A DNA stretch of 45,400 bases, taken from contig JANYBX010000151.1 of the NCBI GenBank assembly GCA_025360615.1, positions 1 through 45,400 of the forward strand, written 5' to 3'. Origin of the DNA: Opitutia bacterium. GTDB lineage: Bacteria > Verrucomicrobiota > Verrucomicrobiia > Opitutales > Opitutaceae. Below are positions 30,368-43,385 of the stretch, piece by piece (position 1 is the first letter of the stretch; every line of letters begins with the position of its first letter). Both the position numbers and the translations under genes were made by a program. Below the pieces are notes generated by a model that was not told where the DNA came from, did no database searches, and worked only from the letters and a program-made list of their open reading frames with translations.

Positions 30368-31792
30368 TCAGGCCGGGACGTTGCCGTCGGCCGCGCGGCG
30401 CGCTTTCAAATCGACGCCAATCTGCGTCATCTTCGCTTCGTTCAGCGGATAAAAAATCACGAGGATGAGCGTCGCGAGGATCCCGAAGACAGCCGGGTAA
30501 ATGCTCATCAACTTGACCAGGCCCTGAAGCATTTCCGGGGTCTGGGCTTGATTGGCGACGAAACCAACCGAGTTGAGCATGAGCAGCGAAATCGCGCCGC
30601 CCCAACCCCAGCCAAATTTCTGCGCGAAAATCGAGGCCGAGAAGACCAGGCCGGTGGCGCGGCGGCCGGTCTTCCATTCGGCGTAGTCGGCCGTGTCAGC
30701 ATACATGGCCGCCATGAGGGCACTGAGGGGCCCGCCGGAGATCGAGCCCAGTGCGTTGATGCCCAGGATCAGCCAGACTTGGTCGGGCTTCAGAAAATAG
30801 AACGACGCGGTTGAGCCGATGGCGACGGCGAACAACAGCACGAAAGTCGGCTTGCCGCCGAGCCGGCGAACGATGAAGGGAACAAAAAACGCGCCGACCA
30901 GCGAGAGCGCCTGATTGCTGGTCTTGAAGACGGAAACGAGGCCTTCCCAGTCCCACGTCCGTCCCAGAAGGGTCTGGGTACCGATGTAATACTTAAAGTA
31001 GTACGTCTCCACGCTGCCCCGCAGCGAGCAGAAGAAGATAAAGGTAATCGTCGTGGCGAGGAGGATCCACCACGGACGATTGGTGCAGAGATCGCTGAGG
31101 TCACGGACCACGGAGGTCTGCTGCGACCGGGGGGGCTGGACCCGTTCCTTGGTGTTAAAGAACACGATCAGGAAAGAAATGATCGAAATGATACCGACGA
31201 TGACAAAGGACCAAAACCACCCCTGGCCAGGCGTGGTGGCGTTCAGCCAGCCACCTACCTTGGTCGATTTCATCAGGCACGCGGTGATCACGATGCCGCC
31301 GCCGAATGCGCCGATGAATTTGTAAGAGGAAAGCGTGGCCCGTTCCGCGGTGTTTGGTGTGAGCACGCCGAGCATCGCGGTGTAGGGGATGTTGATCGTG
31401 GTGTAGACCAGCATCAGGGCGTTGTAGGTGATGTAGGCCCAGGTCAGCTTCGCCTTCGCATCGAAGTCCGGAACGAAAAAAGTCAGGATGCCGAAGATGG
31501 CCATCGGAATGCAGGTGAAGAGCAGGTAAGGCCGGAACTTGCCCCAGCGAGACTTCGTGCGGTCCCCCAGCATGCCGATGATGATGTCGAAGATGGCATC
31601 AAAGGAGCGGCTCACTCCCTGCAGGGTGCCGGCGGCGGCTGCGGTGATCCCGAGAACGTCCGTGTAGAAAATGGGCAGGAAATCGGAGATCGATTTCCAG
31701 TAGAGGCAGGAGGCGAAGTCGCCGAAGCCGTAGGAAATTTTTTCGCGGACGCTCAGCTTTTCCGAGGCGGGATCGACAGGAGGAGTGATCAT
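30368..31792 (-). CDS. GPH/MFS family sugar:cation symporter
   Basis: 474 aa; REKISYGFGDFASCLYW, FDIIIGMLGDRTKSRWGKFRPYLL; about 12 hydrophobic helices. Confidence 0.9.
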   Translation of the reverse strand: MITPPVDPASEKLSVREKISYGFGDFASCLYWKSISDFLPIFYTDVLGITAAAAGTLQGVSRSFDAIFDIIIGMLGDRTKSRWGKFRPYLLFTCIPMAIFGILTFFVPDFDAKAKLTWAYITYNALMLVYTTINIPYTAMLGVLTPNTAERATLSSYKFIGAFGGGIVITACLMKSTKVGGWLNATTPGQGWFWSFVIVGIISIISFLIVFFNTKERVQPPRSQQTSVVRDLSDLCTNRPWWILLATTITFIFFCSLRGSVETYYFKYYIGTQTLLGRTWDWEGLVSVFKTSNQALSLVGAFFVPFIVRRLGGKPTFVLLFAVAIGSTASFYFLKPDQVWLILGINALGSISGGPLSALMAAMYADTADYAEWKTGRRATGLVFSASIFAQKFGWGWGGAISLLMLNSVGFVANQAQTPEMLQGLVKLMSIYPAVFGILATLILVIFYPLNEAKMTQIGVDLKARRAADGNVPA

Positions 31793-31825: not shown

Positions 31826-33289
31826 TCACACTTTTCCGCGCCGCGCCTCGAGCTGCGTGCGGATGTCGGCCATTTTTTTCTGGGTGAGCGGAAAGCGCCA
31901 CAGAAATAGCGCCGCGAGCGCGACGCCGCAGATCGGAACGCCCGCCAGCATCGCGCGAATCCAGAAGATCGTCTCGGGCGACTGCAGCGGTTTCGCGGCG
32001 GAAAAACCCGTGAGCGCGAGCACCTGGCCGGAGAGAAAATAGCCCAGCGCACTGCCGGCTTTGTTCATCCAGGAGCCACAGGCGGAGAAGGCGCCTTCGC
32101 GGCGTTTGCCGGTGTTCAACTCGTCGTAGTCCATGATGTCGGCGCCGATCGTCTGATCCATCATGTAGTAGCTCGCGGCGACGAACGCCATCGAGCCGGA
32201 CGAGAGCACTTGCAGCCACGGGGTCGACGGCGTGTAGAGAAACCACGTGGCGCCATACGCCACCACGCCGATGGCGCAGGCGAGCAGCATGGCGGGGCGT
32301 TTGCCGATGCGCCGCGCGATGAAGGCGAGCACCGGCACGCCGAGAAATCCGCCGATCATCCACGCCGCGCCCATCACCCCGTTCCAATTGTTGGCGGACT
32401 TCGTGTCGCCGCCCGCGACGTAATAAACCGTGGCGTAGTAGCCGAGCGAGCCGACCATGCTCGACCCGAGGGAGAAGCAGAGACCCGCGAGCATTTTCAG
32501 GCGAAACGGCCCACACTGCATCGTCTCGTAGATCGACTCACGGAGTTTTACTTTCTCCGCTTGGCGCGCGGCGACGCCGGCGTAGTAGCGCTCCTTGACG
32601 TTGATAAAAACGAGCACGGCACCGATCAGCATCAAAACGCCGAGGATGCCACAATACACCTGCACGCCGAGGAGAACGTTCTGTTTCCCCGTGGCGGCGT
32701 TGTAGAAAAACGCGAGGTTCGTGAAGGGCAGGCCGACGAAGAACGCGACCTCGAAAACTTTTTGGATCACGCTCTTCACCGCCATCACGCTGGTGCGCTC
32801 GTGGTAGTCGGGCGTGAGTTCGTTGCCCAGGCTCTGGTAGGGCATGTTGAAGCAGCTGACGAACGGGATGTAGAGGAGGCTCGAGCCGAGCATCCACCAG
32901 AAATAGTTGGAGACGTTCAGCGTCGCGCCCCACCCGGGCGTGACGAGAAAGAGCAGCGGCAAACCGACGCCGGCCAACAATCCGCCCACGAGAATAAACG
33001 GCCGGCGCCGGCCGAGGCGCGAGCGGGCGTTGTCTGACAGCCAGCCGAAAAGCGGATCGGAGATGGCGTCCACGATGCGGATCAACATCAGCGCCAGGCC
33101 CACGAGCTGCGGCGACAGGCCGAGGAAAATGTTGAAGACCGGATAGGCGAGGTTCGGGTAGAGCCAGTGGCCCCACATGTCCACGGAGCCGCCCATGCCG
33201 TAGGAAATTTTCGTGCGCATCGGCACGCGATCCTCCGGCGCGGTCGTCGCCCCGCGATTCGTCGCGGCCTGGGAGTCGGGGTCGGCCAA
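31826..33289 (-). CDS. GPH/MFS family sugar:cation symporter (second copy)
   Basis: 487 aa, TTG start (ATG at MRTKISYGMGGS possible); RIVDAISDPLFGWLSDNARSRLGRRRPFILVGG. Confidence 0.88.
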   Translation of the reverse strand: MADPDSQAATNRGATTAPEDRVPMRTKISYGMGGSVDMWGHWLYPNLAYPVFNIFLGLSPQLVGLALMLIRIVDAISDPLFGWLSDNARSRLGRRRPFILVGGLLAGVGLPLLFLVTPGWGATLNVSNYFWWMLGSSLLYIPFVSCFNMPYQSLGNELTPDYHERTSVMAVKSVIQKVFEVAFFVGLPFTNLAFFYNAATGKQNVLLGVQVYCGILGVLMLIGAVLVFINVKERYYAGVAARQAEKVKLRESIYETMQCGPFRLKMLAGLCFSLGSSMVGSLGYYATVYYVAGGDTKSANNWNGVMGAAWMIGGFLGVPVLAFIARRIGKRPAMLLACAIGVVAYGATWFLYTPSTPWLQVLSSGSMAFVAASYYMMDQTIGADIMDYDELNTGKRREGAFSACGSWMNKAGSALGYFLSGQVLALTGFSAAKPLQSPETIFWIRAMLAGVPICGVALAALFLWRFPLTQKKMADIRTQLEARRGKV

Positions 33290-33298
33290 GGGGAAACC

Positions 33299-35770
33299 TC
33301 AGTAGGTGTCGGCCAGCGAGCGATGCGTGAGCGCGCGACGGAGGCCGGCGAGGGTCTGCGGCTGCGTGAATTCCACGTCCACGCTCTTGGGCTCGCCGGG
33401 AAAGAGTTCGAAGTAGTTGTCGCCGCTGCGAAACGCGATGCCGGCAAAATCGAAGGCGAACCGGTGTTGAAACGCGCTCGAGGTGAACGCGAGCGTGGCG
33501 TGCGTGGGGTCGGCGAGACGGATGTCCACCCCGGTCCGCGCCTGGGTGAGCGCGACGAAGCGCGGCGGCGCGAGAAAGACCGAATCCTCGCTCACGCAGC
33601 GGCCGTCGAGATCGAGCGCGATGCGCAGGATGAGATTTTCCGCGCCGTACTGCGCGAGCAGCGGGGCGAGCTTCAGTGTTTTCTGCTTCACGCTCTCGCC
33701 GTAGCGGAGCGGGACGGCTTTCCGCCCCGTCAGCAGCAGGCGGCCGCCGGCATGGAAAAGATCCCACTCCAACAGCCCGCGCGCCTTCGCCGGCCGGTCA
33801 TACACGGTGTAGAGGTGAACGTCGCCGACGGTCGAGCGCCGGTAGTTGCCGGTGATCGTCGTCTCATCGCCGGGCACGTGAGCCGACACCAGCGCCGGCG
33901 CGAAAAACCGCCGTGCCACGTGGTGCAGCGCGCGCCAGCGGCCGGTGAACTCGATCGAGCTCCACGAAGCGACGGGCCAGCAGTCGTTGAGCTGCCAGTA
34001 GAGCGCGCCCATGCAGTGCGGCATCAGCCGCCGGTAGTGCTCCACGCCCGTCTGCATGCAGTAGGCTTGGTTGAGCTGCGACAGATAGATCAGGTCGTCC
34101 TGCGATTTCGGGAAACGGTAGCGGCGCGACACGTAGTCGAGAATCACCTGGTTGCCACCGCGGTTTTTCTGATGGTTCTCCATCGAGGCGCCGAAGACGT
34201 TGGCATCCTCGGGCGGGCAAAACGTCGCCTGCGTTTCGGGTGAGCTGTAGCTCTGCATCCCGAATTCGGAGCAAAAGCGGAAACGCCACTTCTCGTAATC
34301 CTTCACCGGATTGCGGCGGTGCCAGACATCCCAGAAATGCGTGTCGCCGCGCTTTTCCCCGGCCTCGTGGGTGTTGATGCCATCGCCGCGATATTGGGAC
34401 GACGGCCAGTAGTCGGTGACGCCGTCGCACGCGGCCACGACCTTCGGGAGCAGGCGGTGAAAAAGCGCGTCGTAGTTTGCCCGCAGGCGCGGCTGCTTCA
34501 AAAGCTCCTCGTTGAGCTGCTCGATCTCGTTGTTGCCGCACCAGAGCGCGAGGCACGCGCGATGCCGCAGGCGAAGCACCTGCTGCTCGGCCTCCACTTG
34601 CACGCCCTTGAGAAACGCGCGGTCCCCCGGGTAAATGGCGCAGGCGAACATAAAATCCTGCCACACGAGCAGGCCGAGTTCATCGCAGAGATCATAGAAA
34701 TCTTCGCTCTCATAGATGCCGCCGCCCCAGACGCGGAGCATGTTCATGTTGGCCTCGGCGGCGCTGCGCAGGTCGCGCGCGTAGTGCTCGCGCGTGAGCC
34801 CGGCGACGAAGCTGTGCGCGGGAATCCAGTTGGCGCCTTTCGCGAAAATCGCGCGGCCGTTGACGACGAATTGAAATGTTTCCCCCGCGGCATCGGCGTG
34901 ACGGTCGAGCGACACGGTGCGGAGGCCGAGGCGGCGGATCCAGTGGCCGAGCACGCTGCCGTCGGTTCGGAGCACTTCGATTTCGAGCGTGTAGAGCGGC
35001 TGCGCGCCGTGGCCGTTGGGCCACCACAATTGCGGGTGCTCGACGACGATGCTGGTGCCCGTGCCTTCGGCGATGACCACGCTGTCGAGGGAAAGCCGGT
35101 AGCGGCACGATACGCTGGAATCGCGGCGGAGCAGCTGGGGCGCGAACCGGAGCGCGACGCGGCCGCCGGCATCGTGCCGCTGCGTCACGCGCACGTTTTC
35201 GAGGCGGTTGCCACTCCAGGTTTCGAGGCGGAGATCGCGCCAGATGCCGGCGGTAACAAAGCGCGGACCCCAGTCCCATCCGAACTGACACGGCTGCTTG
35301 CGAATCACCTGGGAGCGGCCGACGGGGTCGTTGAACTCCAGCGGGCGGTGCCCCGGGCGGTGAGTGCGGATGTAGTTCATCGCGCTGCCGAAGCGGATGG
35401 TGAGTTCGTTCGCGCCGGCCACGAGGTGCGCCTTGATCGGCCAGCGGTGGCTGACGAACATGTTTTCAGTGCGCGCGATTTCACGGCCGTTGAGCCGCAC
35501 GGTGGCGACGGTGTCGAGGCCGTCTGCCACGAGGTCGATGGTTTCATCACCGAGCAGTTCCTTCGGCACCGTGAAGCTGGCGCGATATTCCCAGTCACGC
35601 TCCTCGATCCACTGGAGGCCGGTCTCGTTCGTGCCCCAGAATGGATCGGGGATTTTCTGAACGCGCAGCAGGTCGGCGTGGACGCAGCCCGGGACGACAG
35701 CGGGCAGCCACGTTTGCCCCGAGCAATCGCGAAAGGTCCAGTCGGCGTGAGCGAGGGAAAGAATGGCCAT
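33299..35770 (-). CDS. beta-mannosidase, glycoside hydrolase family 2
   Basis: 823 aa; VPGCVHADLLRVQKIPDPFWGTNE, KQPCQFGWDWGPRFVTAGIWRDLRLE, MNMLRVWGGGIYESEDFYDLCDELGLLVWQDFMFACAIYP, ALWCGNNEIEQ, RFCSEFGMQS. Confidence 0.95.
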   Translation of the reverse strand: MAILSLAHADWTFRDCSGQTWLPAVVPGCVHADLLRVQKIPDPFWGTNETGLQWIEERDWEYRASFTVPKELLGDETIDLVADGLDTVATVRLNGREIARTENMFVSHRWPIKAHLVAGANELTIRFGSAMNYIRTHRPGHRPLEFNDPVGRSQVIRKQPCQFGWDWGPRFVTAGIWRDLRLETWSGNRLENVRVTQRHDAGGRVALRFAPQLLRRDSSVSCRYRLSLDSVVIAEGTGTSIVVEHPQLWWPNGHGAQPLYTLEIEVLRTDGSVLGHWIRRLGLRTVSLDRHADAAGETFQFVVNGRAIFAKGANWIPAHSFVAGLTREHYARDLRSAAEANMNMLRVWGGGIYESEDFYDLCDELGLLVWQDFMFACAIYPGDRAFLKGVQVEAEQQVLRLRHRACLALWCGNNEIEQLNEELLKQPRLRANYDALFHRLLPKVVAACDGVTDYWPSSQYRGDGINTHEAGEKRGDTHFWDVWHRRNPVKDYEKWRFRFCSEFGMQSYSSPETQATFCPPEDANVFGASMENHQKNRGGNQVILDYVSRRYRFPKSQDDLIYLSQLNQAYCMQTGVEHYRRLMPHCMGALYWQLNDCWPVASWSSIEFTGRWRALHHVARRFFAPALVSAHVPGDETTITGNYRRSTVGDVHLYTVYDRPAKARGLLEWDLFHAGGRLLLTGRKAVPLRYGESVKQKTLKLAPLLAQYGAENLILRIALDLDGRCVSEDSVFLAPPRFVALTQARTGVDIRLADPTHATLAFTSSAFQHRFAFDFAGIAFRSGDNYFELFPGEPKSVDVEFTQPQTLAGLRRALTHRSLADTY

Positions 35771-35800: not shown

Positions 35801-36784
35801 TTAAAGGGAGTTCGATTTCACGAACTCCACAATCTCGTCCGCCTGACAAAAACACAGCGCCGTCACCGTGTCGGCCGCGCCGTAGTAAATCGCGATCCGG
35901 CCGGTGGCGGCATCGCAGAGACAGCCGACAGGAAAGCATACTCCAGGCACGAAGCCCGCGACTTCGTAAGGTGCCTCGGGGCAGAGCAGCGCCTCCTTGC
36001 AGCGCGCGATCACTTTCCACGGTTGCTCGAGGTCGAGCAGCATCGCGCTCATCGAGTAGACGAAGCCGTTGCAGGTGGTCGTCACGGCGTGATAAAATAA
36101 CAGCCAGCCCTCGCTCGTCTCGATGGGCGACGGTCCCGCGCCGATCTTCGTGCCCTGAAACCAGGGCCAGCCGCGGCCGGCGATGTGCCGGTGCTTGCCC
36201 CAATACGTGAGGTCCGGGCTCTCGCTCACAAAAATATCGCCGAACGGCGTGTGGCCCGTGTCGGAGGGGCGGCTGAGCATCAGGAATTTTCCGCCGAAGC
36301 GGCGCGGGAAAAACACGCCATTCCGGTTGTAAGGGAGAAACGCGTTCTCGAGCTGCTCGAAATGCACGAAGTTCGTCGTGCGGGCGACACCGATGGTCGG
36401 CCCATGATAGCCGTTGCACCATGTCACATAATACACGCCCTCAATCAGCGTGACGCGTGGATCGTAGGCGTATTCGTGCTTCGCGACCTCGGGATCATCG
36501 CAGGTGAAACTGATGGGCTTCGGCTCGAACTCGAACTTGTAACCATCCAGGCTGCGGCCGACATGGAGGTGCGGCATGCGGTCCATGCCCTCGGTGCGAA
36601 ACACGCCGATGAAGCCCTTTTGCCACGGCACCACCGCGCTGTTATAAATGCCCGTGACGCGCGGCAGCGGACGCCGGGCGATGATGGGATTCGCATCGTA
36701 GCGCCAGATGATGTCCGGGTTGCCCGCGGGTTTGGGCTGCCAGGGGAGGTTGGGAATCGCGGGACCGACGATCGAAAGTTTCAT
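35801..36784 (-). CDS. GH130 family glycosidase/phosphorylase (mannoside-type)
   Basis: 327 aa; VTGIYNSAVVPWQKGFIGVFR, YDPRVTLIEGVYYVTWC, TKIGAGPSPIETSEGWLLFYHAV. Confidence 0.88.
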   Translation of the reverse strand: MKLSIVGPAIPNLPWQPKPAGNPDIIWRYDANPIIARRPLPRVTGIYNSAVVPWQKGFIGVFRTEGMDRMPHLHVGRSLDGYKFEFEPKPISFTCDDPEVAKHEYAYDPRVTLIEGVYYVTWCNGYHGPTIGVARTTNFVHFEQLENAFLPYNRNGVFFPRRFGGKFLMLSRPSDTGHTPFGDIFVSESPDLTYWGKHRHIAGRGWPWFQGTKIGAGPSPIETSEGWLLFYHAVTTTCNGFVYSMSAMLLDLEQPWKVIARCKEALLCPEAPYEVAGFVPGVCFPVGCLCDAATGRIAIYYGAADTVTALCFCQADEIVEFVKSNSL

Positions 36785-36895
36785 GAATTGGGACGGGGAA
36801 ACCGCACCGTCCGGGGCGAAGAACCCCAGCAGGTTCGGGGCCGAGAGCAGGCGAGGAATGCGAGGGGATGCTACGCCAACGGCGGGAAAATGTTA

Positions 36896-36924
36896 ATGAG
36901 ATCCCTTGTCCGAGACTTGAGAAG
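36896..36924 (-). promoter_or_regulatory. conserved 29-bp motif, copy 1 (upstream of GH130 operon)
   Basis: Minus strand CTTCTCAAGTCTCGGACAAGGGATCTCAT; 22 nt before TAGCAT (36873-36868). Confidence 0.75.
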
Positions 36925-36972
36925 CGCCCGTGAAATAAGCCGTGAAACGACCGCGCGCCCGAGTTTGAAAGC

Positions 36973-36996
36973 AGGGCGGGTCAAAGACCGCGCCCT
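36973..36996. repeat. REP-like hairpin
   Basis: AGGGCGGGTC-aaa-GACCGCGCCCT preceded by gaaagc, same lead-in as the hairpin after hflX. Confidence 0.45.
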
Positions 36997-37078
36997 CCTC
37001 CAGAGCGCGCTGGCGCGAGCGAGTTCGCGACCTATAACGGCAGGGAAACACGGAGCGAATCATCGCGCCGGCCATTCG

Positions 37079-37143
37079 GTAGGCCCGACGTTGGTCGGGC
37101 TCCGGGCTCCGGGCTCCGGAAACCGACCAGCGGTCGGTTCTAC
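37079..37143. repeat. inverted pair of GTAG-headed REP-like hairpins
   Basis: GTAGGCCCGACGTTGGTCGGGCT (37079-37101) and reverse-oriented AACCGACCAGCGGTCGGTTCTAC (37121-37143) separated by GGGCTCC heptamers. Confidence 0.65.
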
Positions 37144-37209
37144 AGTGCAGACTTCCGCTCGAAGATTTGTCGCTCTGCCGCCACGAGGGGATGCGAAGCC
37201 AAGTCGCGT

Positions 37210-38409
37210 TTATTTTTTTATCGGCGTGAGCTTGAACAGCAGCACGTCGTGCGAATCGACGCGGGCGGTGTAGGGCTTGGTCGTATCGCCGACCGCTTTC
37301 TTCGCCCAGATGTCGCGCACCTGATACTCGCCCTCGATGGGCCAGAGGCGTTTCCACTCGACGGTGATGTCCTCGGCCGTCGCGCTGGTATTTAAGGCGC
37401 ACACGGCCCACTCCTTGTTGCTGAGTTCTTTCGCCCAGACTTCGATGTGCTTGGTCGGATCGGCGAGCTGGCGAAAGCCTTGTTTCCCGAGCGCATCCTG
37501 ATCGATCGCGAGCAGTTCCTTGTTCGTCAGGATCGCATGCACCTCGGGCTTCATGTGACGCAGGTCGTTGCCGGCGATCAGGGGCGCGGCAATGATGCAC
37601 CAGAGGCTGAAATGCGCGCGCGATTCGGCGAACGTCAGGCCTTCGTTGCCGACTTCGAGCATGTCGGGATCGTTCCAGTGGCCGGGGCCGGCGAACTTGC
37701 CGAGGCCGTCGGGGCCGTTGCTGTCGACCAGCGTGTATTGCAGGTCGAGGATGCGCTTCCAGCCCATCTCCCAGCTCTTGCGGCCGTCGTAGGAATCGTA
37801 GATGTCGCCCGTCGTGCGCCAGAGGTGGCCGATGTCGGTGGCCCATTCCCAGGGCTTGTTCTGGCCCCACTCGCAGAGGCTGAAAACCACCGGGCGGCCA
37901 GCGGTGTAGAGGGCGTCGCGCATGGTCTTGTAGGTCTCGCGCGCGTCGGCCGTGCCGTGCTCGCACCAGTCGTATTTCAAATAATCCACGCCCCACGAGG
38001 CGTAGGAAAGCGCATCCTGAAACTCATGCCCGCGGCCGCCGGGATAGCCCGAGCAAGTCTTCGTGCCCGCGCAACTGTGGATGCCAAACTTAAAACCTTT
38101 CGCGTGCAGGTAGTCGCCGAGCGCCTTCATCCCGCTGGGGAATTTCTCCGGGTCAGCCACGAGGTTGCCTTTTTCGTCGCGGGTTTTGCGCTCCCAGGCG
38201 TCGTCGATCACGATGTAGATGTAGCCGGCGTCGCGCATGCCGTTTGCCACCATCGCGTCGGCGGTTTCGCGGACGACAGCCTCGTTGATATTATTCGCGA
38301 AGGTATTCCAGCTATTCCAGCCCATCGGGGGAGTCAGGGCGAGACCGGGGAATTTTTGCGCGAGCGCGGGGGCGCACAACGCGAGAAAGAGCAGCAGGGA
38401 TTTTTTCAT
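37210..38409 (-). CDS. alpha-galactosidase, glycoside hydrolase family 27, secreted
   Basis: 399 aa from ATG at 38409; signal peptide MKKSLLLFLALCAPALAQ; LALTPPMGWNSWNTF, VIDDAWERKTRD, YLKYDWCEHG, WNDPDMLEVGN. Confidence 0.95.
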   Translation of the reverse strand: MKKSLLLFLALCAPALAQKFPGLALTPPMGWNSWNTFANNINEAVVRETADAMVANGMRDAGYIYIVIDDAWERKTRDEKGNLVADPEKFPSGMKALGDYLHAKGFKFGIHSCAGTKTCSGYPGGRGHEFQDALSYASWGVDYLKYDWCEHGTADARETYKTMRDALYTAGRPVVFSLCEWGQNKPWEWATDIGHLWRTTGDIYDSYDGRKSWEMGWKRILDLQYTLVDSNGPDGLGKFAGPGHWNDPDMLEVGNEGLTFAESRAHFSLWCIIAAPLIAGNDLRHMKPEVHAILTNKELLAIDQDALGKQGFRQLADPTKHIEVWAKELSNKEWAVCALNTSATAEDITVEWKRLWPIEGEYQVRDIWAKKAVGDTTKPYTARVDSHDVLLFKLTPIKK

Positions 38410-38441
38410 GGGTGAACGAGGTGGGGAGAAAAAGGCGGTAT

Positions 38442-39803
38442 TCAGAGCGACACGCCGCCGTTGCGGATCACGTCGCGATACCAGTAAAACGAATCCTTGG
38501 GCGTGCGGCGCTGGGTCTGGTAGTCGACGTGCACGAGGCCGAAGCGGTCCTTGTATCCCTCCATCCACTCGAAGTTGTCGAGAATGGACCAATAGAAATA
38601 TCCGGCGATGGGCACGCCGTCGTCGATCGCGCGCCGGATTGCGCCGAGGTAGCGCGCGATAAAATCGATGCGCTGCGGGTCGTGGACTTTGCCGTCGAGG
38701 TGGACGAAGTCGGTGTTGCAGTAGCCGTTTTCCGAAAACACGAGCGGCAGGCCGTAGCGCTCCGTCTGAAAGCGCGCGGCCCAGTAGGGCGCCATCGGCG
38801 CGATGTTGAGCCAGGGGAGCGTGCCGCGCGGATTGCCGATGCCCCAACCGCCGGGAAGTTTTTCGGCGTTGCCGTTCGCATCCGCGCGCACCTGCCAGCC
38901 GGAGTAGCAGTTGTAGGCGATGAAATCCGTCTTCTGCGAAATCAGCTTCATCTCGGCCGCCGTGACGCGCGGCATGTCGGCGCCGAAGGCCTTCACGCCG
39001 TCCTCCGGATATTTTCCGAACACCACGGGGTCGGCCCACCAGGCGAGGTTCCACAGCGCGCGCTCGGTGCTGGTGAAGTAGTCGCGGCGCGCGGCCTCGA
39101 TGTCGCGTTTGTCCTCGGTAGCCGGGATGCGTTCGCGGCCGGTGTGCGCGATGGCGATTTTAACTTTCCCCGTGCAGCCCGCGCGCAATGCCTGCACCGC
39201 GCGGCCGTGCGCCATCAGCAGGTGATGCGCACCGAGCAGACAGTCGGCGAACGGCAGCTTCAGCCCCGGCGCGAACATGCCCTCGTGGTAGCCGAGGCCG
39301 ATCACGCAGGGCGGTTCGTTAAACGTCATCCAGTTTTTCACGCGGTCGCCGAGCCGCTCCGCGACGATCGCCGCGTAGTCTCCGAACCACTCCACCATGT
39401 CGCGGTTCAAAAATCCGCCGCGCTGCTGGAGCGCGTGCGGCAAATCCCAGTGGTAAAGCGTGACCCACGGCGTGACGCCGGCCTCGAGCAGCTCGTCGAT
39501 CAGCCGGTCATAGAACGCGAGGCCCTTGGCGTTGGGTTTGCCCGTGCCGCCCGGCTGGATGCGCGGCCACGCGAGCGACAGGCGGTAGGCCTTGAGCTCG
39601 AGTTCGCGCATGAGCGCCACGTCTTCGCGCCAGCGGTGATAGTGGTCGCAGGCGACATTGCCGTTGTGGTTCTCGAACACTTTCCCCGGCTGCTGGGAAA
39701 ACACGTCCCACACGGAAGCGCCGCGCCCGTCCTCATCCCACGCGCCTTCGATTTGATAAGCGGCCGCGGCGGCGCCCCAGACAAAATTTTTCGGGAAAGG
39801 CAT
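38442..39803 (-). CDS. GH1 family beta-glycosidase
   Basis: 453 aa from ATG at 39803; FPKNFVWGAAAAAYQIEGAWDEDGRGASVWDVF, WMTFNEPPCV, PLVFSENGYCN. Confidence 0.95.
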   Translation of the reverse strand: MPFPKNFVWGAAAAAYQIEGAWDEDGRGASVWDVFSQQPGKVFENHNGNVACDHYHRWREDVALMRELELKAYRLSLAWPRIQPGGTGKPNAKGLAFYDRLIDELLEAGVTPWVTLYHWDLPHALQQRGGFLNRDMVEWFGDYAAIVAERLGDRVKNWMTFNEPPCVIGLGYHEGMFAPGLKLPFADCLLGAHHLLMAHGRAVQALRAGCTGKVKIAIAHTGRERIPATEDKRDIEAARRDYFTSTERALWNLAWWADPVVFGKYPEDGVKAFGADMPRVTAAEMKLISQKTDFIAYNCYSGWQVRADANGNAEKLPGGWGIGNPRGTLPWLNIAPMAPYWAARFQTERYGLPLVFSENGYCNTDFVHLDGKVHDPQRIDFIARYLGAIRRAIDDGVPIAGYFYWSILDNFEWMEGYKDRFGLVHVDYQTQRRTPKDSFYWYRDVIRNGGVSL

Positions 39804-39875
39804 AGGGTAAAGCGGGACTCGACGCACGAGCGCGCGGAAAGTGACAAATCCTAGAGCAAGCGCCGCGCCGAAGTA

Positions 39876-39904
39876 ATGAGATTGGTTGTCCCAGATATGA
39901 GAAA
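39876..39904 (-). promoter_or_regulatory. conserved 29-bp motif, copy 2 (upstream of GH1-GH27 operon)
   Basis: Minus strand TTTCTCATATCTGGGACAACCAATCTCAT; 22 nt before TAGGAT (39853-39848). Confidence 0.75.
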
Positions 39905-39919
39905 GTCCGCCGCGACGCG

Positions 39920-41284
39920 TCACTTCAGCCCGAGCTGACGCCGCACCCAGGCGTTGATCGCCTCACTCTGCTCCAGCGGATAGCTGTGCGCCTGCTCAAA
40001 CTCCACCGCCAGTTCCTTGGGCGCGGTGATGACGTTATAGGCCGCGAACGTCGAGGTGGGCGGGCAGACGTCGTCGTTGTAACCCCAGATGTAGAAGCCG
40101 GGGACTTTCAAGCGGCGCGCGAAATTCACCGTGTCGTAGTAGGTCGCCGTCTCGATTTTCGCTGGCGTCGCGTGCGGTGAAGGCTTCCCCGTGACCGCGT
40201 CTGGCATGAACGGATGCGGCCAGCCACCCGCGCGGCCATGCAACTCCGCCGACACATCGCAAAACGCAGGATGCGTCGCCGACAGCCCGGTCACGCGCGG
40301 GTCCAACGCGGCCGTCGTGATCGCAAGTTGCCCGCCTTGGCTGGCGCCCAGCACGAGGAGGTCCTTGCCGTTCCACATTTCGCGCGAGACGAGAAAGTCG
40401 TTGGCGCGCACGCAGCCGAGGTAGATGCGGCGGTAGTAATAGTTTTCCTTGTCCTCGAAATTGAAGAGCCAGTAGCCGGGGAGCGCGCTGGCGTAGAGCG
40501 CGTCGTAGACGGACTGGGCCAGGTTGACCGGGATGCCGTGCACGCCGATCTCAAGCGTGATCGCGCCGCGCGCCGCGAGATCCTTGTCGCCGGAATACGG
40601 CCGCACGCCCGCACCGGGGACGCGCAACACCGCCGGGTATTTCCCGGGGAGTTTCGGCTCGCAGAGGATGCCGAAAATCCGGGCAGGCACCGGCGCCCAG
40701 CTCGGGCCGACGTTACGGAAGCTCACATGGTAAACGTTCACCTTGTCCGTGCAGGCCTCGGGCAGAAGCGTGAGCAGCGGCTCCACGGGCACGGCGGCGA
40801 GCGCGGCTTTCTGCGCCTGCCAGAACGCATCGAAATCTGCCGGCGCCGTCTGTGTGGCGACGATTTTCTCCGGCGCAAACGCCGCCGTCGCGAGCCCGCG
40901 ATAAACTTTCCCCGCGACCTCCGCCGTCGCCACGCAGCGGAGAAATCCCGGCTGCGTCATCGTGCCGGCATCGATCACCAAGCCGTCGAGCGGCACGGCC
41001 ACCGCTTTCGCCACGCCCGGCATCATGTCGGGCGCGACGGCGACGTTGACCGAGATATTATCGATCGGCTCGTTGTCGGCGGTGACGGTAATTTTGAACC
41101 GCACCGGTGCGCCTGGCTCGTAAGTCCAGTCCCGATGGTCGGGCGCCACGCGCACCTGCACGGTCGCGACGCGCGCCATGGCTTGCGGCGGCACGGGCGT
41201 GATCGGGGTGGGTGCCGAGCGGCCAGAGGCCGCGCTGGCGACGCACGCGATGGAAACAAGAAAACGAAAACGGGAGGAAAGCAT
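39920..41284 (-). CDS. acetylxylan esterase-like (CE7-type alpha/beta hydrolase), secreted
   Basis: 454 aa from ATG at 41284; signal peptide; DFDAFWQAQKAAL, GASQGGQLAITTAALDPRVTGLSATHPAFCD, NDDVCPPTSTFAAYN. Confidence 0.88.
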   Translation of the reverse strand: MLSSRFRFLVSIACVASAASGRSAPTPITPVPPQAMARVATVQVRVAPDHRDWTYEPGAPVRFKITVTADNEPIDNISVNVAVAPDMMPGVAKAVAVPLDGLVIDAGTMTQPGFLRCVATAEVAGKVYRGLATAAFAPEKIVATQTAPADFDAFWQAQKAALAAVPVEPLLTLLPEACTDKVNVYHVSFRNVGPSWAPVPARIFGILCEPKLPGKYPAVLRVPGAGVRPYSGDKDLAARGAITLEIGVHGIPVNLAQSVYDALYASALPGYWLFNFEDKENYYYRRIYLGCVRANDFLVSREMWNGKDLLVLGASQGGQLAITTAALDPRVTGLSATHPAFCDVSAELHGRAGGWPHPFMPDAVTGKPSPHATPAKIETATYYDTVNFARRLKVPGFYIWGYNDDVCPPTSTFAAYNVITAPKELAVEFEQAHSYPLEQSEAINAWVRRQLGLK

Positions 41285-41362
41285 GACGGGGAAGGCGCGG
41301 ATGAAGGGGAAAACTAGCGGAATCGTTGACCGAAATTCCCCGCCAAAGCGAGGGGCACCAGC

Positions 41363-41391
41363 ATGAGATCCTTTATCCAAGAATTAAGAAC
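41363..41391 (-). promoter_or_regulatory. conserved 29-bp motif, copy 3 (between CE7 esterase and SSS symporter)
   Basis: Minus strand GTTCTTAATTCTTGGATAAAGGATCTCAT. Confidence 0.65.
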
Positions 41392-41540: not shown

Positions 41541-43385
41541 ATGCAACTGCACGCCTTGGATCTCGGTATCATCGTCGGATATTTCTGCCTCGTTATCAGC
41601 ATCGGCCTCTGGGTCTCGCGGCGCGGCGCGACGGACCTCGACAGCTACTTCCTCGGCGGAAGAAAAATGCCGTGGTATCTGCTCGGCGTTTCGGATGCGT
41701 CCGGGATGTTCGATATCAGCGGCACGATGTGGCTCGTCTATGTGCTATTTCTCTACGGCGCGAAAAGCATCTGGCTCCCGTGGCTGTGGCCGACGTTCAA
41801 CCAGATTTTCCTGATGATGTTTATGAGCGCGTGGCTCCGCCGCTCGAATGTCCTCACTGGCGCCGAGTGGATGCAGACGCGTTTCGGCCGGGGGAAAGGC
41901 GCGACGCTCGCGCATCTCAGCGTGGTCGTCTTCGCGCTCGTCAACGTCATCGGCCTGCTCGCCTACGCGTTCAAGGGCATCGGGAAATTCGCCGTCGTCA
42001 TGCTGCCGTGGCGCTTCACTGGCGAGACCACCGGGCTCTTCACCGATGAAAATATCTACGCCATGATTCTCCTCGGCCTCACCTCGCTCTACGCGATCAA
42101 GGGCGGCATGGTCAGCGTCGTCATCACGGAGGTCGCGCAGTTCCTCATCCTGACCGTGACGGCACTCACCATCGGCGTGATCGCGCTCGTGAAAGTTTCC
42201 CCCGACATGATGGCGAACTCGATTCCCGCCGGCTGGATGAACCCGTTCTTCGGCTGGAAACTCGACCTCAACTGGACCGGCATCCTCGACACCGCCAACG
42301 CCGCGCTGCACGAGGACGGCAACGAATTTTTCATGATCATCTTCGGGATGATGTTTTTCAAAGGCGTGCTCTCCAGCATGGCCGGCCCCGCGCCGAACTA
42401 CGACATGCAGCGCATCCTCGCGACGCGAAATCCCCGCGAGGCGAGCCTCATGAACGGCATGGTCAACGTCGTCCTGATGTTTCCCCGCTACATGATGATC
42501 GCCGGCATCACCGTGCTCGCCCTCGCCTTCTGCATGCCGCAGATGCGCGCCATGGCGAAGCCCGACTTCGAGAAAATCCTCCCGCTCGTCCTCAGCCAGC
42601 AAGTGCCCACCGGCGTCCTCGGTTTCCTCCTCGCGGGACTCGCCGCCGCGTTCATGTCGAACTTCGCCGCGACCATCAACGCCGCCCCCGCCTACCTCGT
42701 AAACGACATCTACAAACGCTTCATCAACCCCACCGCGAGCTCCAGCAAGCTCGTCGGCCTGAGCCGGCTCGCCTCGCTCGCGTTTCTCGTCATCGGCGTC
42801 GTCTGCGGCGTGCTCACGAATCGCATCACCGATGTGATGATGTGGCTCGTCGGCTCGCTCTACGGCGGCTTCGTCGTGGCGAATTTGCTCAAGTGGTATT
42901 GGTGGCGCTTTAACGGCTACGGCTATTTCTGGGGCATGGTCGCCGGTATCGGCGGCGCCATGATCGTGCCGCCCATCGCGGAAGCCGTCGTCGGCCACAG
43001 CTTCAACCTGCTCTACACATTCCCGGTTATCTTCCTCGTCTCGATCGTGGGTTGCCTGATCGGCACGCTTCAAACCCAGCCCGAGGACGACGATGTGTTG
43101 AAAAAATTCTACAAGACGGTGAACCCGTGGGGCTGGTGGGGACCGATCCGCGCGAAGGTGATGCAGGAAGATCCCGCCTTCATTCCGAACCGAAACGCCG
43201 CGCACGATCTGACCAACGTCGCCGTCGGCATCGTCTGGCAGCTCTGCCTGGTCACGCTGCCCATCTACATCGTGCTCCAGCAATGGGCGGTGGCCGGCGG
43301 CATCCTCGCGCTGCTCGCCGTCACGTCGGTCTATATGAAGTTCAAGTGGTATGACCGCCTTGAGCCGGCCGCGCTTACGGACTGA
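41541..43385 (+). CDS. sodium:solute symporter (SSS family)
   Basis: 614 aa; DLDSYFLGGRKMPWYLLGVSDASGMFDISGTMWLVY, multiple TM helices, LAGLAAAFMSNFAATINAAPAYLVNDIYKRF. Confidence 0.93.
   Translation: MQLHALDLGIIVGYFCLVISIGLWVSRRGATDLDSYFLGGRKMPWYLLGVSDASGMFDISGTMWLVYVLFLYGAKSIWLPWLWPTFNQIFLMMFMSAWLRRSNVLTGAEWMQTRFGRGKGATLAHLSVVVFALVNVIGLLAYAFKGIGKFAVVMLPWRFTGETTGLFTDENIYAMILLGLTSLYAIKGGMVSVVITEVAQFLILTVTALTIGVIALVKVSPDMMANSIPAGWMNPFFGWKLDLNWTGILDTANAALHEDGNEFFMIIFGMMFFKGVLSSMAGPAPNYDMQRILATRNPREASLMNGMVNVVLMFPRYMMIAGITVLALAFCMPQMRAMAKPDFEKILPLVLSQQVPTGVLGFLLAGLAAAFMSNFAATINAAPAYLVNDIYKRFINPTASSSKLVGLSRLASLAFLVIGVVCGVLTNRITDVMMWLVGSLYGGFVVANLLKWYWWRFNGYGYFWGMVAGIGGAMIVPPIAEAVVGHSFNLLYTFPVIFLVSIVGCLIGTLQTQPEDDDVLKKFYKTVNPWGWWGPIRAKVMQEDPAFIPNRNAAHDLTNVAVGIVWQLCLVTLPIYIVLQQWAVAGGILALLAVTSVYMKFKWYDRLEPAALTD

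Follow-up and report, generated by a model that had tools for sequence, protein, structure and literature searches.

In the class II promoters of XylS (Pm) and AraC (araI1-I2), the centres of the two half-sites lie 21 bp apart and the promoter-proximal half-site overlaps the -35 box. The tandem half-site layout of XylS at Pm has been described (PMC5481539), XylR binds its own DNA only in the presence of xylose (PMC4514859), and in marine Vibrio a xylan locus is under the control of XylRA, a XylR-type protein whose motif has two repeats (PMC12125979). Bacteria of the phylum Verrucomicrobiota are important polysaccharide degraders. Here we analyse a contig of 45,400 bp (hereafter the window), which is the complete contig C149 of a 4.58-Mb assembly in 557 contigs (G000), and its relatives in the Opitutaceae. 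A preliminary description of this DNA had proposed that a 29-bp motif upstream of three transcription units defines a carbohydrate regulon. Judging from sequence comparison, we consider it very likely that these sites serve as operators in a regulon for use of the plant polysaccharide mannan, and that a XylR-type activator from a separate contig, C390, controls it in trans.

Three sites in the window and the genes downstream

All three sites are on the minus strand, exactly where they had been reported: CTTCTCAAGTCTCGGACAAGGGATCTCAT at 36896–36924, upstream of a GH130-GH2-GPH-GPH operon; TTTCTCATATCTGGGACAACCAATCTCAT at 39876–39904, upstream of GH1-GH27; and GTTCTTAATTCTTGGATAAAGGATCTCAT at 41363–41391, upstream of a CE7 esterase gene. 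They end 111 nt from the GH130 start (ATG at 36784), 72 nt from the GH1 start (ATG at 39803) and 78 nt from the signal-peptide ATG of CE7 (41284), which agrees to within one base with the 73–112 given before. Whole-genome searches for sites used degenerate patterns, and scoring with a position weight matrix (PWM) was applied to the window and to selected loci. With up to three mismatches to the 29-bp consensus, the three sites are the sole matches in the 4.58-Mb genome, and the reversed-pattern control found none. Scored with a matrix built from other genomes only, they reach 40.3, 31.7 and 36.4 bits, respectively, compared with 8.4 bits for the next position in the window and 11.9 bits for the best reversed control. 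The 29-bp motif is a real element whose boundaries need adjusting: position 1 is unconserved, and the functional element spans about 36–37 bp, made up of a 28-bp core and, 4–8 bp upstream of it, a box that is less well conserved.

The genes downstream of the sites are all on the minus strand. The first unit encodes a GH130 protein resembling beta-1,4-mannooligosaccharide phosphorylases (35801–36784; PF04041; nearest solved structures TM1225, Uhgb_MP and the mannooligosaccharide phosphorylase 5ayd), a GH2 beta-mannosidase-like protein (33299–35770; 2je8 beta-mannosidase, E = 4e-152), a GPH/MFS_2 sugar symporter (31826–33289) and a GPH family sugar:cation symporter (30368–31792; TIGR00792 above cut-off). 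The second comprises a GH1 beta-glucosidase-like gene (38442–39803; TIGR03356 above cut-off, scored on a stretch of the open reading frame) and a GH27 alpha-galactosidase gene, listed as an open reading frame at 37210–39054; its product matches alpha-galactosidases from residue 237 on, and its true start is probably downstream of the listed one, near the GH1 stop. The third is the CE7 acetyl (xylan) esterase gene (40214–41284; PF05448), with a signal-peptide-like start. Judged by their families, these enzymes, including the acetyl esterase, would suit acetylated galacto(gluco)mannan as substrate. A genome search for a GlcNAc-2-epimerase-family (mannobiose epimerase) gene returned none. Divergent from CE7 lies a sodium:solute symporter gene (41541–43385), which shares with it the intergenic region that holds the third site; a homolog of this symporter, 79% identical, is found within the mannan locus of another genome (L024).

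A XylR-type regulator and a fourth site on another contig

As had been stated, the window holds no regulator gene; because the window is a complete contig, this reflects only an assembly break or a split locus. The regulator ortholog of this genome is at C390:22244–23428 (minus strand). Its product is 75% identical to the regulator of locus L022, with the next paralog at 40%, and 84% identical to that of G130 (L041). It carries a C-terminal AraC double helix-turn-helix (HTH; PF12833, 66.7 bits; PF00165, 47.7 bits), which places it in the AraC/XylS superfamily, and an N-terminal LacI/GalR-type sugar-binding domain (PF13377, 110.5 bits), which places it in the XylR-type subgroup. The best solved relative of the regulator profile is E. 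coli XylR (4fe4/4fe7; E = 4e-56, positions 17–379 of 387). The gene directly after the regulator encodes a TonB-dependent receptor (TBDR), and between the two, in the promoter of the receptor gene, is a fourth site, ATCTCAATTGGCGGGTAACTGAACTCAT (C390:22181–22207). The expectation of an AraC/XylS-type regulator encoded elsewhere holds in that the protein has an AraC HTH and is encoded on a different contig beside a site of its own, with the correction that it is XylR-like and not XylS-like.

The TonB receptor gene is followed, in the same orientation, by genes for FG-GAP repeat, TPR and weakly GH5/DUF5060-like proteins (L037, 3624–8409, on C390), which may share an operon with it. In L024, too, the regulator has a GH5-like gene beside it.

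Conservation of the site across the Opitutaceae

Searching 200 genomes of the family for the 28-bp core with up to three mismatches gave ten further matches, and none with the reversed control. When 10–20 kb around each were read, eight of the ten were found beside XylR-type genes and/or GH130, GH2, GH1, CE7 or TBDR genes; the loci contain orthologs of GH130, GH2, GH1, GH27, CE7 and the MFS transporters together with the TBDR and a regulator with LacI-like sensor and AraC HTH. The matches in L020 and L026 fall within unrelated genes and were rejected as probable chance occurrences.

A profile search for homologs of the regulator collected 44 loci, nearly all from Opitutaceae or Opitutia genomes. 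In these and the earlier loci (958 kb), an iterated PWM identified 76 sites of at least 14 bits, while its reversed version identified none at the same threshold. Removing duplicates from loci fetched twice and intragenic matches leaves 58 distinct sites, most of them 60–150 bp upstream of TBDR, GH130, GH1(-GH27), GH2 or CE7 orthologs. As the preliminary description had anticipated, scanning the genome and its relatives located the motif upstream of mannan and glycan genes and brought up an AraC-type gene, and the motif did not recur at random or intragenic positions with similar frequency. The proposed carbohydrate regulon is borne out by a shared operator and orthologous targets in dozens of Opitutaceae; its membership is wider than was described, including the TonB-dependent receptor. 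In 11 of the 44 loci no site is within reach of the regulator homolog, and in ten of these no other regulon gene was found nearby; they may represent orphan or diverged paralogs. No site was found near the regulator homologs that are 37–47% identical (Blastopirellula, L077).

Site anatomy and promoter geometry

The consensus over the 58 distinct sites is TCTCAA-N7-RYAA-N4-WCTCAT-T-MM-C, a spacing that omits one variable position (the search pattern has N8 between TCTCAW and YAA), and the inner positions 10–13 vary freely. The recurrence of TCTCA at 21 bp noted before is recovered in the whole set, where 21 is the strongest self-repeat lag (0.44 identity, compared with 0.32 for the next), yet the repeated unit is wider than TCTCA alone. 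A GGCAA box at positions -8 to -4, strongest at receptor promoters, is a copy of the internal GRCAA placed 21 bp ahead of it, so that the unit is a half-site GRCAAN3AWCTCAW present in two tandem copies 21 bp apart. Tandem direct-repeat half-sites at about this distance are characteristic of AraC-type operators. The consensus of the TBDR sites is GGCAAaaaatCTCAAtt...g.GcAAgtgAaCTCAT, and the upstream GRCAA box of the distal half-site is better kept in these than in the three window sites, where it is poorly preserved.

The position of the site relative to the predicted promoter is fixed. Its last T is the first base of the -35 box, with TTNNC in 54 of the 58 sites, and a -10 box TANNNT begins at exactly +23, leaving a 17-bp spacer, in 51; at any other offset TANNNT occurs at most eight times. 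In the window, the predicted GH130 promoter (36868–36896, minus strand) has -35 TTAACA at 36896–36891, its first base shared with the site, a 17-bp spacer and -10 TAGCAT at 36873–36868, while the predicted GH1 promoter (39848–39876, minus strand) has TTACTT at 39876–39871 and TAGGAT at 39853–39848. The 22-nt gap reported between site and TAGCAT or TAGGAT is correct, as is the GGGAAT (41340–41335) at the same distance from the third copy, which lacks TANNNT and is one of the seven exceptions among the 58. The CE7 promoter shows TGCTGG and GGGAAT instead of the conserved -35 and -10 boxes, and may be weak, altered or differently started. With this exception, the window sites have class II geometry, the proximal half-site touching the -35 box ahead of a 17-bp spacer, and the earlier proposal of a site abutting -35 in an AraC-type class II layout extends, through the fixed boxes, to 51–54 of the 58 sites.

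This geometry bears on whether the regulator is instead a repressor or dual regulator released by its inducer, following LacI-like logic. The LacI/GalR-like sensor domain would suit such a mode of action, and the -35 TTMMC and -10 TANNNT boxes are fairly good at several sites, so that some activator-independent transcription may be possible. Against this, an AraC-type HTH with tandem half-sites abutting -35 is the usual geometry of activators, and operators of repressors more often overlap the transcription start or the spacer, and we regard repression as unlikely.

Co-occurrence of site and regulator

Among the 200 genomes, an exact match to the degenerate pattern and a regulator of at least 60% identity occur together in 28, the motif only in 8, the regulator only in 18 and neither in 146 (Fisher p = 3e-15, a significance inflated by kinship among the genomes, whose events are not independent). 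Some of the 18 regulator-only genomes carry mismatched sites, and one genome counted as motif-only (G189) has a regulator truncated at a contig end. Paralogs of GH130 have the site in only 2 of 23 upstream regions. In genus g17, it is found at GH130 in the regulator-bearing G086 and is missing there in G016, G060 and G142, where the regulator was not found. In some regulator-bearing genomes with no site at GH130, for example G130, the gene is internal to an operon. The site stands at orthologous, functionally linked genes and is absent from GH130 orthologs in the genomes without the regulator, the pattern of a co-regulated regulon.

These data also address the explanation that the sites are a real operator of a different protein, such as one of the 14 other AraC-HTH proteins or an unlinked factor, with the XylR-type gene a mere neighbour. 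It draws on the placement of this gene on another contig than the three sites in their own genome, and on the 15 AraC-HTH (HTH_18) matches in that genome. In many genera, however, the XylR-type gene sits with the sites and is followed by a TBDR gene with a site of its own. Its presence predicts the site upstream of GH130 orthologs at least 70% identical (18 of 27 regulator-bearing genomes versus 0 of 5 others, p = 0.01, the genomes being related and not independent), and the 21-bp direct-repeat layout fits an AraC-type DNA-binding domain. We consider control by a different protein improbable. A recent duplication of DNA, which would make the three copies a mobile or repeat element and not a selected binding site, is suggested by their closeness within 4.5 kb and absence elsewhere on the contig, but is refuted by the comparative data, since the upstream regions of the three units are dissimilar outside the sites and promoter boxes, positions 10–13 are free to vary, and the same core precedes non-homologous genes in many genera.

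Further candidate and look-alike sites

When two mismatches to the degenerate pattern are allowed, the genome yields 14 matches versus 6 in the reversed control, and these are mostly noise by PWM score. The genome has a single GH26 (mannanase family) gene, and 74 bp from it is a weaker site of 21.8 bits with no RCAA box (C259:7330–7356, minus strand; L187), which is oriented not to this gene but to a divergent gene for a PD40 beta-propeller protein at a distance of 65 bp. A site of this kind is not conserved beside GH26 homologs in 18 other genomes, and we list it as a candidate regulon member. In genus g13, a similar site, TTCTCAAATTTTCGAAGAGCAATCTCAT, is found near a GH130 paralog (L171 in G057:C45; L173 in G012:C40), and in G012 the contig also encodes, within 3 kb, a 48%-identical regulator; this is possibly a diverged sister regulon. 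The genome G150, in which no regulator ortholog was found, has a 21-bp tandem repeat (TCTCATCAGTAGCGCAATTCC-like; C39:38275–38490 and other contigs) that produces nine matches to the operator pattern as a look-alike array.

Proposed mechanism and comparison with known systems

Sites, targets, conservation, promoter geometry and regulator linkage are directly visible in these genomes, and a XylR-type activator would act on them as follows. Two regulator protomers would bind the two tandem GRCAAN3AWCTCAW half-sites, 21 bp apart, and, with the promoter-proximal half-site ending at the -35 box, would contact or recruit RNA polymerase upon inducer binding. This would activate GH130-GH2-GPH-GPH, GH1-GH27 and CE7, and, via the fourth site, the TBDR gene adjacent to the regulator. 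Because the target genes point to mannan sugars and not to xylose, the ligand of the XylR-type protein is probably a mannan-derived sugar, sensed by the LacI/GalR-like domain. More tentatively, and with a good deal of doubt, the regulon may be an Opitutaceae-wide one in which the activator senses a mannan oligosaccharide and not a pentose, and in which graded operators would place uptake before degradation. The grading, equally tentative, might lie in tandem half-sites that are nearly complete at the TonB receptor, as opposed to enzyme operons whose distal half-site is weaker.

A limited literature search found no description in Opitutaceae of a transcription factor motif or a regulon serving mannan use, and the present regulator, site and gene set appear to be undescribed so far. 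Operator, regulator and targets are characterized closely enough for regulon members to be predicted in new genomes, and the predicted layout of a regulated promoter in Verrucomicrobiota is now apparent (-35 TTMMC, 17 bp, -10 TANNNT). The domain architecture and promoter logic are already known from other bacteria. As in the class II promoters of XylS (Pm) and AraC (araI1-I2), there are two tandem half-sites of about 15–17 bp, each with an A box and a B box, although the box sequences differ and the sensor domains of those proteins are unrelated to the present LacI-like domain. Vibrio XylRA is likewise a XylR-type activator of polysaccharide-utilization genes with a motif of two direct repeats at several promoters; it differs in acting on xylan and xylose, in belonging to the Gammaproteobacteria and in its AT-rich motif, as the present site is unlike the AT-rich XylR-type repeats (PMC12125979). 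The closest match is the activator of the E. coli xylose operon, XylR (PDB 4FE4/4FE7), which has the same order of LacI/GalR-like sensor and AraC HTH, shows a nearly full-length sequence match and uses direct-repeat operators, whereas the protein described here belongs to Verrucomicrobiota and has mannan enzymes, transporters and a TonB receptor as its targets.
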